A stretch of 64,000 bases of DNA from Streptomyces sp. SirexAA-E. Its GTDB lineage: Bacteria > Actinomycetota > Actinomycetes > Streptomycetales > Streptomycetaceae. Position 1 is the first letter of the stretch. Each line of letters opens with the position of its first letter. Where the stretch lies: assembly GCF_000177195.2 (NCBI RefSeq), contig NC_015953.1, positions 1-64,000 on the forward strand, read 5' to 3'. Shown here piece after piece: positions 14,269 through 21,719 of this stretch. Position numbers and translations under genes: made by a program. The notes beneath the pieces were generated by a model. The model searched no databases and was not told the origin of the DNA. It saw nothing but the letters and a program-made list of their open reading frames with translations.

Positions 14269-14477
14269 GGTCCTCCCCCGGGTGACGGTGTGCACAGGCA
14301 CCTGGTTCACAGGGTGGAAGGAGTGTGCGAGGCCGTGCCTGGGCGTTCGCCTGGGTTCACCTGAACGAGTGCCGGCGCTCTTGACCAGCCTCCGGCGGGC
14401 CGGTCACGGTGGGCTGTGGTGGCGGCTTCAGCGGAAGGGCAGCGGTGCTGGACGATCCCGGCCTGTACGGACCTCGC

Positions 14478-15488
14478 ATGCCTCTGCCGCTGCGCGTAAA
14501 GCCGGTGCCGGGTGAGTCGACGGGGTCGTTCGTGAACCGGCTCGCGCACGCCAACGGCCTGAGCCTGGCTGCTTTCCTCGACCGGGTCGGACAGGGCGAG
14601 GCACCCGCGGACCCCGAGCGGGTGGAGAAGTACCCGCAGTCCACCGAGATGTACGTGAACGAGGCGGGACTGCGCTACCTGTCTGTCCTGGCCGACCGGT
14701 CACCCAGTCTCCTGCAGCAGGATCTGCCCAGCCTGAACGCAGACCAGCTGCAGGCAGATGGCGAGGACGAAGAGGCCGAGTGGAGGTGGCCCTGGGAGCC
14801 GCTGACGGGGCACCTCGTGCGGTACTGCCCGCTGTGCGGTGATGACCTGGGTGTCGGCGAGGCGGTGTGGCTGATGTCGTCGGACAGCTGGCAGGTGTGC
14901 CTGCGGCACGGTTACTGGACCGACGACTCACGCGGCCGTGGTCCGCACTTCGTGCAACTGGCCGAACTACCCGAGACGATAGGGGCGCACCACGTGCGCC
15001 GGCAACTGGCCGAACAATGGGGGCCGGCCGGTGAGGAGCTGTTCGCTGATGCCTTCCAGGTGGCGGTGTACTGGTGGACGCGGATGCCGGACACCGCGCG
15101 CTGGGTACAGCGAGCCTGGACGGCCGGGCTGGATGCGCGGGAAATGCGGGCGGCCCCGCTGGTGATCTACCCGGAGGCGGCCGAGCTCGCGCGCGCCATG
15201 GTGGACTTCGAACGCGCCGGACAGCGGGATACGGCGGCCCGGACCCGATGGCTTGTGGGCGTGGAGCAGTTGATGTCCGGGTTGGGCGTGGACGTGGCTG
15301 CAGGGCGTCAGGCGCTGCTGGTGTGGCTGGGACGGCATCGTATGGGGTCGCCCGAGCGGGGCTATCCGGTGGGTCCGCCTCGCCTCGCGCTGGCTCTGGG
15401 GCACAACAGGATCGCGTCCCGGACCGGGTCTGTGAGCCAGCGCTCGTGCCTGACCTGGCAGTTGGGCATGGCAGCCGCCGACATGTAG
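14478..15488 (+). CDS. tniQ: TniQ-family transposition targeting protein
   Basis: 336 residues. The N-terminus has the TniQ hallmark: a basic Pro start (PLPLRVKPVPGES), then SFVNRLAHANGLS with a helix and LAAFLDRVG. Zinc-finger pairs YCPLCG (about residues 115-121) and CLRHGYW (about 140-146) follow, as in other TniQ/TnsD proteins. TniQ selects target DNA and links it to the AAA regulator TnsC. The normal partners (tnsA, tnsB, tnsC) occur in this window only at 33094-37482, about 17.6 kb away, so this copy is detached or belongs to another element. I chose the ATG because the upstream extension is not protein-like. A strong hairpin terminator follows the stop by eight bases. Confidence 0.75.
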   Translation: MPLPLRVKPVPGESTGSFVNRLAHANGLSLAAFLDRVGQGEAPADPERVEKYPQSTEMYVNEAGLRYLSVLADRSPSLLQQDLPSLNADQLQADGEDEEAEWRWPWEPLTGHLVRYCPLCGDDLGVGEAVWLMSSDSWQVCLRHGYWTDDSRGRGPHFVQLAELPETIGAHHVRRQLAEQWGPAGEELFADAFQVAVYWWTRMPDTARWVQRAWTAGLDAREMRAAPLVIYPEAAELARAMVDFERAGQRDTAARTRWLVGVEQLMSGLGVDVAAGRQALLVWLGRHRMGSPERGYPVGPPRLALALGHNRIASRTGSVSQRSCLTWQLGMAAADM

Positions 15489-15718: not shown

Positions 15719-16465
15719 CTACAGGTCGTGCAGGTCCTCGCCGTGCTGGTGGCGAAGTTGGGTCAGAACCAGGCTTCCCAGCCCGAGTACGCCGAATGCG
15801 TATCGCTTTGCATCGTCCCGCTTTTGAATATTATGGCGGTCCACATTGCTCAGAGCCTGAGCGAACCCCATTCCCAGCCCTCGCCACCCTTCCCATTCTC
15901 CCGGCTCCTTGCCGAGTCGGTACTGGGCATCAGTGGCAAATACTGCAGCGAAGAGGCCCTTGCCGACCAGTGCCTGGCCGTTGTTTCCCCGGGGGTTTCC
16001 GCACCATCTCCGAACGCAGTCCTCCACATAGATGGCGGTCTGGCTGGCGACCGTCTGCCAGTCCTCATTCTGGACATGTGCCTGAACGTGAGACCACAGG
16101 TCCGGGTCGAATGCCGTTTCGTCCACTGCGTCGTCGCTGGTTCCTGCCTCTTGCAGCTCGAAGACGGCTGCCTCGATGACTCCGCTGGCCTTCCGCAGCC
16201 CTCCCAGAAAGGCCCTCTCGAAGGACGAGTCAGGCGTGTCAGTACTGAATGCCATCAGCGAGTACCGGACACTCTCGAAATCGGCCAGCAGGTGATGGTC
16301 CTTCCCGAGGGCTCGGATGAGGGTGGATCTCACGCGTCCTTTCCAGGATGCAAATTCACCAGGCGGCCGAAGCTCCGCCCCTCGCCGGTCTGCTTCTTCC
16401 TTGAGCCCCGTCAGGACCTCAATAGCTCGCTGAGCGTTCATCGCCACAAGGTATCGGCCGCTCAC
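15719..16465 (-). CDS. TIGR02391 (Ymh)-like protein, possibly HEPN-related
   Basis: 248 residues from GTG; an ATG eight codons later (16441) is equally possible because neither has a clear ribosome binding site. The C-terminal part, with FAQALSNVDRHNIQ, then DAKRYAFGVLGLGSLVLTQLR, is similar to the helical C-terminal domain of the TIGR02391/Ymh family, which often occurs in mobile islands and is discussed as HEPN-related. The N-terminus (about 1-110) is helical with many charged residues. Lower GC at codon third positions than its neighbours (for example TTGAATATTATGG around 15825) suggests transfer. A toxin or abortive-infection role is inference from the family. Confidence 0.65.
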   Translation of the reverse strand: MSGRYLVAMNAQRAIEVLTGLKEEADRRGAELRPPGEFASWKGRVRSTLIRALGKDHHLLADFESVRYSLMAFSTDTPDSSFERAFLGGLRKASGVIEAAVFELQEAGTSDDAVDETAFDPDLWSHVQAHVQNEDWQTVASQTAIYVEDCVRRWCGNPRGNNGQALVGKGLFAAVFATDAQYRLGKEPGEWEGWRGLGMGFAQALSNVDRHNIQKRDDAKRYAFGVLGLGSLVLTQLRHQHGEDLHDL

Positions 16466-17476: not shown

Positions 17477-18052
17477 CTACGCGGCGAAGCCGATGTTTTT
17501 GACGTATTCATACTGGCCCCACTGGGAGCCCAGATCGGGCAGGACATCGGCCGTCCAGACGTCGTCCAGGCCTTGGTGGTCGCCGGCCGCCCAGGATCCG
17601 ACGATCTTGTCCCAGCGGCGCACGTTCATCGTCCGGTGTGCCACCACCCGCTGAAGCTGGCGGGCCACGCCGGACTGGTCGAGGGGGTGGATCTCCACGC
17701 GGGTGCCGCGGCCCTCGCGGTTGAGGCGGGCGGTGAGGTGGCGGGCGACGTTGCGGCGCCGCACCGCCCGGTAGGCGGTGTCGATGCGTTCCAGGTTGGC
17801 CTTCGAGGGACGGCGGGTGCCCTGCATCCACGCCTTCAGCGTCCGGTCGCTCACGGTCAGGCCGGCGTCCTTGGCTGCCTGCCAGGCCCTGTCCGACGTC
17901 GTCAGGTAGTGCAGGCGTGCCATCAGGCCGCGCCTGGCGGTCACCGGGGTGGCGATGTGAGCGGCGAGCCGGTCGAGCTGGCGGGCGACGGCTTCGCTGC
18001 CCTTGATCCCGCTCGCGCCGAACTTCCCGAAGTCGATGTTCTTCTCCGGCAT
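17477..18052 (-). CDS. tpg: Tpg-like telomere terminal protein
   Basis: 191 residues, close to the usual 184-186 of Streptomyces Tpg. It starts directly at the stop of the tap-like gene (TAA then ATG), and tap-tpg in this order is the known telomere operon. Layout resembles Tpg: an N-terminal helix-turn-helix (GLTVSDRTLKAWMQGTRRPS, about residues 64-83), a basic middle (NVARHLTARLNREGR) and an aromatic C-terminus (WGQYEYVKNIGF). Tpg is covalently bound to the 5' end and primes end patching. Overall similarity to archetypal Tpg is low by eye, which fits the non-archetypal hairpins at 1-236. Alternative: a DNA-binding accessory protein unrelated to Tpg. Confidence 0.6.
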   Translation of the reverse strand: MPEKNIDFGKFGASGIKGSEAVARQLDRLAAHIATPVTARRGLMARLHYLTTSDRAWQAAKDAGLTVSDRTLKAWMQGTRRPSKANLERIDTAYRAVRRRNVARHLTARLNREGRGTRVEIHPLDQSGVARQLQRVVAHRTMNVRRWDKIVGSWAAGDHQGLDDVWTADVLPDLGSQWGQYEYVKNIGFAA

Positions 18053-19618
18053 TTACTGCTCCTGCCCCGTGCCGGCTTCGGTGCCGGTCCCGGCGGTGTA
18101 GGTGTCTTTGACCTTGACCTCGGTAACCGAGCGGCCTTCGGGGAAGACACGGCGCCAGTCTCCGATGATGTGGAGTTCGTCGGTTCCCATCGCCCGTACG
18201 ACCGTCAGTCCCGCGTCGTGGGCCTTGAGCGCCTTCATCCAGAGGTTGGCGAAGGCCTGGGAGCGGATGATGTGCATCCAGTCCGGGCGGTAGAGCTCCC
18301 GGTTGTAGTTCGACTCCCCCATCGTGGACACGAACTTGGAGTACATCGCCTTCACGTATTCCAGCGTCAGCTCGTCGCCGTCTGCGATCGCGGTGTCGCG
18401 GGCGTCCTTGAGGGCGATCCGGAACTTCTCCAGGAGGTTCTCGGTGGCGCCCGAGGTGTACGACTCGTGGATCTCGGGCGGCTCGCACAGGCCGTGCTTC
18501 GGGCCGGACAGGCGCAGCAGCAGGCGCAGGGTCGGTTCGGTGACCCACAAAGGGCCCGGTTCGTCGCGCTGGCCGATCGGGTTGGGCAGCACCGCGTCGT
18601 GCTCCCAGGCGGGCGGGGTGATCAGGTGGACTCCGGCGCGGCGCCGGTCGTGTGCGAAGCCGCTGGAGTGTTCCATCTGGCCGAGCGGGAGGTGGGTCTT
18701 GAGGGCCGAGAGGTAGGCGCCGTTGATGTCGAGCGCGGTGACGTCGTGCTTCCCGGGCGGCAGTTCGGGCCGCGTCCACTTGGGGCGGGCTTCCCAGATC
18801 TGGTCGGCGCCCTTGGACGTTGGCTTCTTGAGGATGTCGGGGATCCAGGGGTGGGCGATCACGTCGTAGCGGGCGCCTTTGCGGGTCTCGTCCAGCAGGC
18901 GCATCGCGTCCGGGATGGCCCGCTTCAGCAACGCGGCACTCGCGGCTTCGACATCGCCTTGGTGCTCGGCGAGCGCGGCGCGAACCGCTTCGTGGATCAA
19001 GTCGCCCGGCCCGGACGGCTCCTGGAACGCGCGCCCGCGCGGGGCCGTACCTTTCCCGCCGGCCGGGCGGGGCGGGCGTGCTGTGCGCGACTCGTGGGGC
19101 CGGGCAGACAGCGCGGCGAGCTCGGGCTTCGGGGTTCCGACAGGGGTCGCCTGGCAGTCGGAGAGGTCGAGGTGCTGAGCGAACCCCGCCACGCGTTGTT
19201 CGGCCGGACGGCCGCACAGCACACACGGCTCGGGCACGGCGAGCAGTTCCACCTCGTCCTCGTCCTGGCCGACTTCCGGCGAAGACGTGGAAGTGACGGC
19301 CGCCGCAGCAGCGCCTGACGCCATGGGCTGCTCGGCCAGCTCCGCCGTGTTCTCGGTCTCGGTCGGGGTCTCCTCGGTGGCGAGCTTGGCGTTGAGTCCG
19401 TCCAGCAGGTATGCGTACTTGGCCCGGGCCTCACCGGCCGGGTCCCGGCCGCTCTCCCATCCGCTGAGGGTGGACGGGCTAACGCCGAGCGCGCGTGCCA
19501 CCTGCGCCTTGGACAACTGGGCCCGTTCCCGCAGCTCGCGGCGCACCTGGCAGGGCGGGAGTTGGGCCTGCGGGCCAACGGCGTCGAGCAGCGAGTCGAT
19601 CTCGTCGAAGTCGCTCAC
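18053..19618 (-). CDS. tap: Tap-like telomere-associated protein
   Basis: 521 residues from the GTG that overlaps the upstream HTH gene (GTGA) and has GAAGGG ten bases upstream. The N-terminus holds an XRE-type helix-turn-helix (ELRERAQLSKAQVARALGVS, about residues 26-45). A variable acidic linker with one CVLCG knuckle follows, then a long conserved C-terminal block with DINGAYLSALKTHLPLGQ, LWVTEPTLRLLL, EYVKAMYSKFVSTMGES and WMHIIRSQAFANLWMKALK. I recognise this block from Tap homologues. Tap binds the folded 3' overhang and recruits Tpg to the telomere. The coupling to tpg and the telomere hairpins in this window support the call. Confidence 0.8.
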   Translation of the reverse strand: MSDFDEIDSLLDAVGPQAQLPPCQVRRELRERAQLSKAQVARALGVSPSTLSGWESGRDPAGEARAKYAYLLDGLNAKLATEETPTETENTAELAEQPMASGAAAAAVTSTSSPEVGQDEDEVELLAVPEPCVLCGRPAEQRVAGFAQHLDLSDCQATPVGTPKPELAALSARPHESRTARPPRPAGGKGTAPRGRAFQEPSGPGDLIHEAVRAALAEHQGDVEAASAALLKRAIPDAMRLLDETRKGARYDVIAHPWIPDILKKPTSKGADQIWEARPKWTRPELPPGKHDVTALDINGAYLSALKTHLPLGQMEHSSGFAHDRRRAGVHLITPPAWEHDAVLPNPIGQRDEPGPLWVTEPTLRLLLRLSGPKHGLCEPPEIHESYTSGATENLLEKFRIALKDARDTAIADGDELTLEYVKAMYSKFVSTMGESNYNRELYRPDWMHIIRSQAFANLWMKALKAHDAGLTVVRAMGTDELHIIGDWRRVFPEGRSVTEVKVKDTYTAGTGTEAGTGQEQ

Positions 19619-19902
19619 CGGCTCGTGCCCTTCGCATCGGCCCGGGCGGAGCGGTGCCGGTCGGCGGGCAGCACCTCGCACGCGCGCGTCGGCCCCGCCA
19701 GCAGGTCCAGCGCGCCTATGCCGTAGTGCTCGGCCAGGACATCGACGTCACGCAGGCTCCACGAAACGGCACCCGACTGTCTGCGCGACACCTGCGTCTG
19801 CGTCAGTCCCAGCACCCCCGCAACCGACCGCTGCGAGTCACCCGTCACCTGCATCAATGCGGCCACCGTCAGCCGCAACGACTCCTCCAAAGCCAATCCC
19901 AT
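19615..19902 (-). CDS. Small helix-turn-helix protein heading the tap-tpg operon
   Basis: 95 residues. A helix-turn-helix is visible at about 15-45 (LMQVTGDSQRSVAGVLGLTQTQVSRR), followed by a short helical tail. The stop overlaps the GTG of tap by four bases, so it is the first gene of a three-gene operon. A perfect 12-bp palindrome (AATTAGCTAATT, 19942-19953) about 40 bases upstream of its start is a natural target for autoregulation. It may set the level of telomere proteins; this is inference. Confidence 0.75.
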   Translation of the reverse strand: MGLALEESLRLTVAALMQVTGDSQRSVAGVLGLTQTQVSRRQSGAVSWSLRDVDVLAEHYGIGALDLLAGPTRACEVLPADRHRSARADAKGTSR

Positions 19903-19941: not shown

Positions 19942-19953
19942 AATTAGCTAATT
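19942..19953. promoter_or_regulatory. Palindromic operator in AT-rich promoter of the tap operon
   Basis: AATTAGCTAATT is a perfect 12-bp palindrome in a short AT-rich island that stands out from the GC-rich surroundings, 40 bases upstream of the first operon gene (start 19902). It is probably the binding site of an operon-encoded HTH protein. Confidence 0.5.
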
Positions 19954-20055: not shown

Positions 20056-20439
20056 TTACTCACGCGGAAGTCTGCGGGACGCCCGCCGGGCGTCCCACCT
20101 CGCCTGGCGTGCCTCTTCAACCGCCCGATCGGACAGGCACCGCGGGCACACGAGGTCCAGGACACGGCGGCGCAGGACCCGGCGCAGCCGGGGTCCGGGA
20201 GGCAGCGGCCACCCACGGCAGTGACGGTGCACCGTACGCGCGCGGGTGCCCAAGAGCGCAGCGACCACAGAGGTGTTGCCGGCGTAGGCGGCCAGGAGGA
20301 ATGCCATCTGCGCCTGGTGGCCTGCCGGGAACCGCGCGGCGGACTCGGCCTGCTCTTCCGGGTGGAGGAGGGCGTCGTGGCGCTCGCAGCGCAGCGTCGT
20401 CCTGCTGTTCCGGGCGATGCCCGGCGAGCTGGTGTTCAT
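20056..20439 (-). CDS. Hypothetical small zinc-knuckle/HTH protein
   Basis: 127 residues, third codon positions almost all G or C, unlike the other frames here. It has CERH near residue 18, a helix-turn-helix-like stretch (YAGNTSVVAALLGTRARTVHRHCRG, about 51-75) and CPRC near residue 98, then a very basic C-terminus. This suggests a small nucleic-acid-binding protein. No recognised family and no obvious ribosome binding site. It is upstream of the tap operon on the same strand but separated by 153 bases and the operator, so it is not in the operon. Confidence 0.55.
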   Translation of the reverse strand: MNTSSPGIARNSRTTLRCERHDALLHPEEQAESAARFPAGHQAQMAFLLAAYAGNTSVVAALLGTRARTVHRHCRGWPLPPGPRLRRVLRRRVLDLVCPRCLSDRAVEEARQARWDARRASRRLPRE

Positions 20440-20834: not shown

Positions 20835-21719
20835 GAGCGTTTTCAGCGTTGCCGCTCCAGGGCGAGGACGGCTTTGGTGATGACGGTCATGCGGTTCGGG
20901 CTGATGCGGGATCTGCGGAAGATCTGCCAGGACTTCAGCCGTGCCATGCCGCGTTCGACCGGTGCTCGGGCTGCGGCCAGGGCCCGGTTGACGGTGCGCT
21001 GGGTGAGGGTGAGCTCGCCACCCGGTGGCCGTTTGAGTCCAGTGGTGACCCAGAAACCGGCACCCTGGTAGGCACGGTCGGCGAGGACGGGGATGCCCTG
21101 GCGTTCGCAGATCCGGATGATGCGATGGGTTCGGGCCGCGGTCAGGTCATGGGTGCGACCGGGCAGCGCGGGCGAGATCCACAGCAGTTCGCCCGTCGGA
21201 TTGGTCACGACCTGGATGTTCACGCCGTGCCGGCGGTGCTTGGCCGAGTAGTCGGCCCGGCTGTCGCCGACGCGGTCGCATTCGGCGAGGGTCCCGTCCA
21301 GCAGGACGAACTCCGGATCCTGCTCGCGCAGCGTTCTGAGCAGGCCGGGGGCTCGTTCGGCGAGCAGGCCGGTCACGGCGGTGACGTAGGCGTGGGCGGT
21401 GCCGACGGATATCCCGAAGCCGGTCGCGATCCGGGCGAGGGTGTCGTGGCGGCGCAGGTACACCAGAGCGACGAGCGCACGCTGGTGCGGCGGGAGCTTG
21501 CAGCGGCGGTCACCCTCGCGGGTGACGATGAGCATGGTGACCCACTCGACCAGGGCGTGAGGAAGGTCGAGTGCGGCAGGATAGGGAACCAACAGGGCTC
21601 CTGTGCCGGTGGGTTGAGACGTCGAACACCTCCCTCAACGGCACGGGGGCTTTGTGCGTTGCGGCCCTCACCTCAACCTGACCGGCGTCACTCGATCAGT
21701 GGCCACGCTGAAAACGCTC
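20835..21719. mobile_element. Complete IS5-family insertion sequence
   Basis: 885 bp bounded by inverted repeats: GAGCGTTTTCAGCGTTGCC (20835-20853) and its near-perfect complement at 21701-21719 (one mismatch in 19). It carries one transposase gene filling most of its length. I see no convincing target duplication at the borders. It lies against the broken XRE/DUF2220-like gene and may have taken part in its loss. Confidence 0.8.
20843..21592 (-). CDS. IS5-family transposase (DDE_Tnp_4 type)
   Basis: 249 residues from a TTG start with GGAG nine bases upstream. An N-terminal helix-turn-helix ([20 protein letters not shown], about 52-71) precedes the DDE core: FVLLDGT (first Asp, about 96), [11 protein letters not shown] (second Asp, about 170) and [13 protein letters not shown] (Glu, about 213). 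All three catalytic acids are present and the frame is intact, so the element is probably active. This family moves DNA by cut and paste. Confidence 0.9.

Follow-up and report, generated by a model that had tools for sequence, protein, structure and literature searches.

Within Streptomyces, two pairs of end-patching proteins, Tap-Tpg and Tac-Tpc, each carry out priming and polymerisation in vitro unaided, and the Tap and Tac systems are stated to hold no polymerase motif (PMC4513846). Another, non-archetypal pair, GtpB-GtpA, has been published from Streptomyces griseus IFO13350 (Suzuki 2008, via PMC7205883). For telomeres of the Sg2247 type, the end-patching proteins were called elusive in 2021 (PMC8743542); a Tap-domain gene upstream of a DNA-binding pseudogene was noted in S. 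albus J1074, where an unknown pair was supposed (PMC3937824). In this study, we examined the first 64,000 nucleotides of the chromosome of Streptomyces sp. SirexAA-E (NC_015953.1, positions 1 to 64,000; hereafter the window) and describe an operon that probably provides Sg2247-type telomeres with their end-patching machinery, namely a primer protein and a Tap-like partner. The chromosome is linear, a single contig of 7,414,440 bases, and the window is its left end. At 17.5-19.9 kb from the chromosome end, the operon is transcribed endward and comprises three tightly coupled genes:

17477-18052, minus strand: candidate terminal protein of 191 amino acids (aa), with a weak helix-turn-helix (HTH) stretch of HTH_3-like type at residues 58-94 and an isoelectric point (pI) of 10.8
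18053-19618, minus strand: Tap-like protein of 521 aa, with an HTH at about residues 20-82, a zinc-ribbon-like part and a C-terminal polymerase-like core
19615-19902, minus strand: HTH protein of 95 aa, the first gene of the operon

An earlier note on this DNA had placed a three-gene operon here, and both the positions and the operon are confirmed by the coordinates of the open reading frames (ORFs) and by family alignments. The longest reading of the Tap-like ORF spans 18053-19681; because the alignment of most of the listed homologues begins only at residue 16-25, its start is likely the GTG at 19618. This GTG overlaps the stop of the HTH gene by 4 nt (GTGA), and the ATG of the 191-aa gene directly abuts the TAA stop of the Tap-like gene. 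The genes are more than chance ORFs, since the 191-aa family aligns lengthwise (39 members; 156 distinct full-length proteins).

The chromosome end towards which the operon is transcribed carries a row of hairpins:

1-175, unstranded: Sg2247-type telomere array, a hairpin row with nearly all triloops
1-15: hairpin I, with a TCC loop
18-22: constant GACGC
24-40: hairpin II, with a TAC loop, followed by more hairpins

These hairpins, already pointed out in the earlier note, are real: the 3' strand of bases 1-175 has a folding energy of -71.2 kcal/mol, compared with -35.4 +/- 3.3 for shuffled sequence (z = -11). Bases 1-40 are identical to the end of pSCAT (40/40 nt), and the likeness to pSHJG1 is 97.6% over 41 nt; both plasmid ends have been classed as Sg2247-type telomeres (PMC8743542). 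Judged by its sequence, the window end is thus an Sg2247-type telomere, a known class, at contig base 1. The ends of relatives begin about 7 bases further out, so the assembly appears to halt just short of the telomere tip. Many ends of replicons that bear the 191-aa family share a common plan of TCC-loop hairpin, constant GACGC and TAC-loop hairpin, with late-starting contigs showing the second hairpin only. Between subfamilies the stems vary with compensating changes, while loops and spacer are constant.

As a correction to the earlier note, the pair is no local oddity but belongs to a widespread Streptomyces family. With fragments counted and E at most 1e-3, the 191-aa family is present in 81 of 199 genomes of the genus, where archetypal Tpg is present in 150. 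The two strongly avoid each other: the 191-aa family occurs in 40 of the 49 genomes lacking Tpg vs 41 of the 150 bearing it (Fisher p = 2e-11), and it tends to replace archetypal Tpg. A comparable association holds for the telomere. The 23-base telomere start was counted at 0-1 mismatch because the pattern at up to 3 mismatches is noisy (92/199 genomes match, and the reversed control also matches often). At this setting it occurs in 12 of the 199 genomes, all 12 of which carry the 191-aa family (69 of the other 187 do; p = 1e-5) and 8 of which have no Tpg. In ten genomes the start has 2 mismatches, and here the family is present in four and not in six. The start was read at a contig end in nine genomes, among them G104, with 2 mismatches.

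Plasmids show the same association. Telomere-matching plasmid records numbered 42, of which 40 were examined, with the match terminal in 30 and non-terminal in 10. The 30 divide into 21 with the 191-aa family, six with the Tap-like gene, the one gene looked up there, two without the family and one that was not looked up. Of the 23 terminal Sg2247 records in which it was looked for, 21 thus have the family on the replicon itself, compared with a full copy in 0/6 archetypal-ended plasmids (p = 6e-5), one of which has a fragment match (E 1e-8). Of the non-terminal records, 6/10 carry the family and 4/10 do not. Among the 21 plasmids is pRLB1-9.2, which holds both the 191-aa and the Tap-like gene; a plasmid of that strain, written pRLB1-9.1, is said to encode no Tap/Tpg homologue (PMC7205883).

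The telomere core, defined as GACGC followed by the TAC-loop hairpin II, was found in 12/28 left ends of genomes bearing the 191-aa family, 7 of these 28 having been picked for known presence of the motif. Without motif-picked ends, the comparison is 5/21 left ends vs 0/20 from Tpg-only genomes (p = 0.03). Contig ends were taken from the 191-bearing genomes and 20 Tpg-only genomes, not from all 199, and the motif-bearing ends that were read, the window aside, were taken because the motif had already been seen there. The core was also present in 2/10 further ends of 191-bearing genomes (nine right, one left) and in all seven terminal Sg2247 plasmid ends that were read, a set picked out by its likeness in the first place. 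It occurred in none of 6 archetypal plasmid ends and none of 412 background stretches, and many chromosome ends held no telomeric sequence of any kind. In 12 genomes, including G021, whose telomere and protein gene sit on separate contigs, telomere likeness tracks protein likeness (Mantel r 0.62, p 0.005). Taken with the genome, plasmid and core associations, this supports the proposal of the earlier note that the operon encodes an end-replication pair fitted to the hairpins at its own end of the chromosome. The two genes also travel together: a near-full-length Tap-like ORF is present in 57 of 80 named relatives, with no more than 160 nt between its end and the 191-aa gene downstream in 56 of them, so the absence of the 191-aa protein beside other such Tap genes, which the earlier note had allowed for, is not what is seen. 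Nor did the 191-aa protein turn out to be a clear member of an unrelated HTH family, the other outcome that would have spoken against the note. No relatives were found in viral contigs.

Several observations nevertheless weigh against assigning Sg2247 ends to this operon. Neither the 191-aa family nor Tpg was found in 9/199 genomes, and the terminal Sg2247 plasmids CP003276 and CP108583 have no copy on that replicon, the other replicons of those cells lying outside the search. The family is present in genomes with an archetypal-like or non-telomeric end (G151, G067, G193), and in 9/30 loci (L015, L022, L024-L027, L034, L036 and L040) the 191-aa gene has no Tap-like gene within the 1.5 kb examined, much like the solitary tpg genes described elsewhere. 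S. albus J1074 (S. albidoflavus J1074) has Sg2247 ends and no tap-tpg (PMC8743542), and the gene adjoining its Tap-domain gene was called a pseudogene (PMC3937824). In addition, related replicons are not independent samples. Lastly, the same chromosome holds an archetypal tap-tpg without inner stops at 7350273-7352990, about 61 kb from the right end.

This second pair raises the question of whether the operon is a linear-plasmid relic, with the archetypal Tap-Tpg near the right end capping and patching both ends. Such a relic would fit the intact tap-tpg and the existence of 191-aa genes that stand alone or are broken. By blastn, the window and the right-most 40 kb of the chromosome share no match, as would be the case in a hybrid chromosome. 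Indeed, because a tap-tpg lies near the other end and no sequence is common to both ends, the chromosome appears to be a hybrid that combines two end systems, or else its right end is incomplete. However, the left end is of the Sg2247 type and not archetypal, the operon is intact, and Tpg is missing from two thirds of the genomes with the 0-1-mismatch telomere start. Moreover, Tac on the SCP1 telomere is not replaceable by Tap in vitro (PMC4513846), and we consider a relic unlikely.

Turning to the proteins, the note had held that the one in the tpg position is not archetypal Tpg, and our searches agree. It gave no match to the archetypal Tpg model NF047541 of NCBIfam (cut-off 90), and hhalign found likeness between the 191-aa family and Tpg in the HTH half only (Prob 30, E 6e-4). 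The C-terminal halves do not align, so that the equivalent of T114, the priming residue of archetypal Tpg, which is followed by an acidic residue (PMC3572947), could not be placed. As to candidates for a priming residue in the 191-aa protein, hydroxyl residues are present in 156/156 members at T/S35, Y49, Y94, S/T176 and Y181. Two others were rejected as universal priming residues, S127 being neither S nor T in 12/156 members and T117 being R or Q in 16/156. The AlphaFold model is good (predicted local distance difference test, pLDDT, 87). A comparison with PDB structures gave no clear relative, which excludes no family (Foldseek best E 1.1; VIA best Z 5.7, to an HTH-containing chain).

Could these simply be ordinary XRE-type regulators, or an addiction module, riding on linear replicons with this telomere? 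All three proteins have HTH matches, that of the 191-aa protein being weak (E 0.025). Plasmid annotation, where present, mostly reads "transcriptional regulator" or HTH protein, and VIA-align and PDB sequence matches are mostly to HTH chains. Against this, what is conserved in the Tap-like protein is a half other than the HTH, and this half can be aligned with archetypal Tap. Similarly, 24 residues are near-invariant across the 156 full-length 191-aa members, most of them outside the HTH, and this family and Tpg strongly exclude each other. We regard this explanation as very improbable, and the 191-aa protein as a candidate terminal protein.

The earlier note had called Tap recognisable. This stands as a statement of distant homology and fails as one of archetypal identity: against the archetypal Tap model NF047542 the Tap-like protein scores 70 bits with a cut-off of 600, its best stretch being N-terminal, while hhalign aligns it with archetypal Tap at Prob 98.4 (E 5e-15) over 212 columns of the C-terminal half. 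Core-only alignments gave Prob 87 and 80. From these alignments, the Tap-like protein is a distant Tap, a member of the Tap superfamily by way of a shared C-terminal core. Ahead of the core lies a zinc-ribbon-like C132/C135/H149/C155, its four positions kept in 93-100 of 108 rows of the Tap-like alignment, which represent about 93 different proteins as judged by the last 250 residues.

These properties define how the locus compares with the published pairs. With archetypal Tap-Tpg it shares the operon order, the size of the small protein, its high pI (10.8 for the very basic 191-aa protein, 10.1 for the Tpg of the same genome) and an HTH in both proteins; the Tap homology extends over 212 columns, and Tap shows three similar blocks. 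It differs in that both proteins fall under the NCBIfam cut-offs, the C-terminal half of the 191-aa protein finds no alignment in Tpg and the telomere class is another. GtpB-GtpA, compared by description, is likewise a non-archetypal pair of terminal protein and Tap in one operon, and strains with its homologues have GGA-type hairpin loops in their telomeres, as here (PMC7205883). Its telomere class, Sg13350, differs by name from Sg2247; the 191-aa family may well include GtpA (SGR_RS00470, with GtpB being SGR_RS00475). The Tac-Tpc pair of SCP1, again likened by description, resembles what is proposed here in being non-archetypal and having a polymerase activity of its own (PMC4513846).

How such a pair could polymerise may be indicated by three blocks in the C-terminal core of the Tap-like protein, each conserved in the Tap-like rows:

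18728-18730, minus strand: codon of D297, in block A (LDINGAY)
18350-18352, minus strand: codon of K423, in block B (YVKAMYSKF), which also holds K428
18179-18181, minus strand: codon of D480, in block C (GTDELH)

D297, N299, K423 and Y426 are invariant in 108/108 rows, and D480 and K428 are kept in 107/108. The blocks are among the most strongly conserved and resemble, in order, motifs A, B and C of family-B polymerases. The phi29 polymerase has DVNSLY and TDSIHL, most of the archetypal Taps shown have DVNMAF and SDCAVY or alike, and the spacing from A to C is 183 aa in the Tap-like protein, 216 in most archetypal Taps shown and 209 in phi29. Like phi29-type polymerases, the Tap-like protein has a D-x-N-x-x-Y block A, lysines in block B, a TD-x-x-H block C and similar motif spacing. 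In archetypal Tap, moreover, K-x3-KGGIGK runs in step with K-x3-NSLYGK of phi29. A single motif pattern fits 106/108 Tap-like rows, 16/16 archetypal Tap rows (14 genes) and 8/9 protein-primed family-B polymerases (pPolBs) of phages, compared with 0/2141 other ORFs of at least 300 residues; as it was written after the motifs had been seen, it is a specificity check and not an independent test.

In the structural model, block A lies at a strand end, block B within a long helix and block C at a beta-turn. The top Foldseek match in PDB was the phi29 polymerase (E 1.3e-3, prob 0.95). In BFVD it was that of a podovirus (E 2.9e-4, prob 0.99), and the first six matches there also include polymerases of His1, a tectivirus and phages of Bifidobacterium and Rhodococcus. 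We take these top-ranked polymerases to be protein-primed, and phage protein-primed polymerases work with a terminal protein. Unlike the phi29 type, the Tap-like protein has no exonuclease domain that can be seen in the model, in which the part ahead of the core consists of an HTH, a zinc-ribbon-like part and stretches of low confidence. From sequence and model, we lean towards the view that this core is a divergent, exonuclease-less relative of pPolBs, and go no further because block B is ambiguous.

The evidence to the contrary is considerable. Of the blocks, A and C are clear and B is the weakest, its motif lysine being K423 or K428, and block C has one Asp only (GTDE), the first Asp of motif C being missing. 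The model is middling (pLDDT 64.7), and the Foldseek superpositions have low TM-scores (about 0.17 for the query) and root-mean-square deviations of about 16-21 A. A family-B match by sequence profile was sought and not found. With hhalign, the comparison with nine phage pPolBs gave Prob 0.9 and a score of 22.6, which is not significant, the best of 40 column-shuffled controls scoring 25.5; blocks A and C were nevertheless in register, and archetypal Tap gave no motif alignment with the pPolB profile. Profiles from Pfam, PHROGs and PDB sequences gave no polymerase match for the Tap-like protein, and the 50 rows from VIA-align held no polymerase and were nearly all HTH chains. The core could therefore be a new polymerase fold, or have an active site completed by the terminal protein, the family-B likeness being convergent or a product of the predictor. 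The missing profile matches, single Asp, ambiguous block B and unseen exonuclease domain would all suit this, whereas the matching order and spacing of the three blocks and the first rank of such polymerases in two structure libraries speak for kinship. We think it possible, with the balance tilting somewhat against it.

Returning to kinship with pPolBs, the wider proposal would be that every Streptomyces Tap, the archetypal ones too, stems from a captured lineage of protein-primed family-B polymerases. After loss of the exonuclease and gain of HTH and zinc parts for recognising the folded telomere, this lineage would now prime nothing but chromosome ends. For this, the arguments seem to us evenly balanced. 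Archetypal Tap shows like motifs, and these might account for its reported polymerisation, for which no motif was known. Among the open-access papers searched (titles, abstract starts and passages), none was found that assigns Tap to family B, nor one that gives a protein pair to Sg2247 ends. By word search, the text of the survey PMC7544198 has none of Tap, telomere and Streptomyces, and in that of PMC12926913 Tap and telomere are absent as whole words and Streptomyces occurs four times, one mention being a cited title on translesion polymerases at telomeres.

The remaining gene of the operon encodes the HTH protein, a frequent partner found in 45/62 named loci with a Tap-like ORF. Its homologues elsewhere lie upstream of Tap-like genes or share one ORF with them. 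At two loci, L042 (452-aa ORF) and L071 (634-aa ORF), the homologue is in frame with the Tap-like protein, which, from the reading frames, suggests gene fusion. Upstream of this gene lies a palindrome:

19942-19953, unstranded: palindrome AATTAGCTAATT, about 40 nt upstream of the start of the HTH gene

The earlier note had ascribed to AATTAGCTAATT and the HTH gene a regulation peculiar to the operon. As a conserved operator the palindrome is rejected, being present in 0/80 named loci of relatives, and regulation by the HTH protein is no more than a possibility.

Beside the operon, a 127-aa ORF (20056-20439, minus strand) matches the N-terminal half of Tpg (NF047541) with its residues 28-109. 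It scores 32 bits against the cut-off of 90 and has no priming half; by this match it may be a Tpg-derived HTH protein or a relic. Further features flank the operon:

14409-15488: TniQ gene
15719-16465: gene for a Hypoth_Ymh protein
20843-21592: DDE transposase gene

Elsewhere, copies of the telomere start were seen inward, about 0.9-3.1 kb from replicon ends and in orientation opposite to the terminal telomere (CP108874 925-963, CP109577 926-964, CP108270, CP108311, CP107962 and G159:C1:3130-3152). Their arrangement would fit the addition of new DNA, or of a foldback, outside a former end.

As for how the pair would work, we infer covalent priming by the 191-aa protein, with one of its hydroxyls acting as primer and the protein staying bound to the 5' end as terminal protein. 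The Tap-like protein would bind the folded 3' overhang, that is, the GGA- and GTA-loop hairpins around the constant GACGC/GCGTC spacer, hold the terminal protein at the end and, if its core has polymerase chemistry, add the first nucleotides. A host polymerase would then fill the remainder.

In conclusion, the operon supplies candidate end-patching proteins for Sg2247-type telomeres, a class for which they were reported as elusive (PMC8743542), and an active-site hypothesis (D297, K423/K428 and D480, with their partners in archetypal Tap, such as the Asp of DVNMAF and of SDCAVY) for polymerisation by Tap without a motif (PMC4513846). It also offers a simple genome test, in an antibiotic-rich genus, of which pair serves which end. 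If the proposed descent of the Taps is true, linear Streptomyces chromosomes would be kept by a domesticated phage or tectivirus polymerase, and there would be several telomere classes, each with its own polymerase-primer pair.

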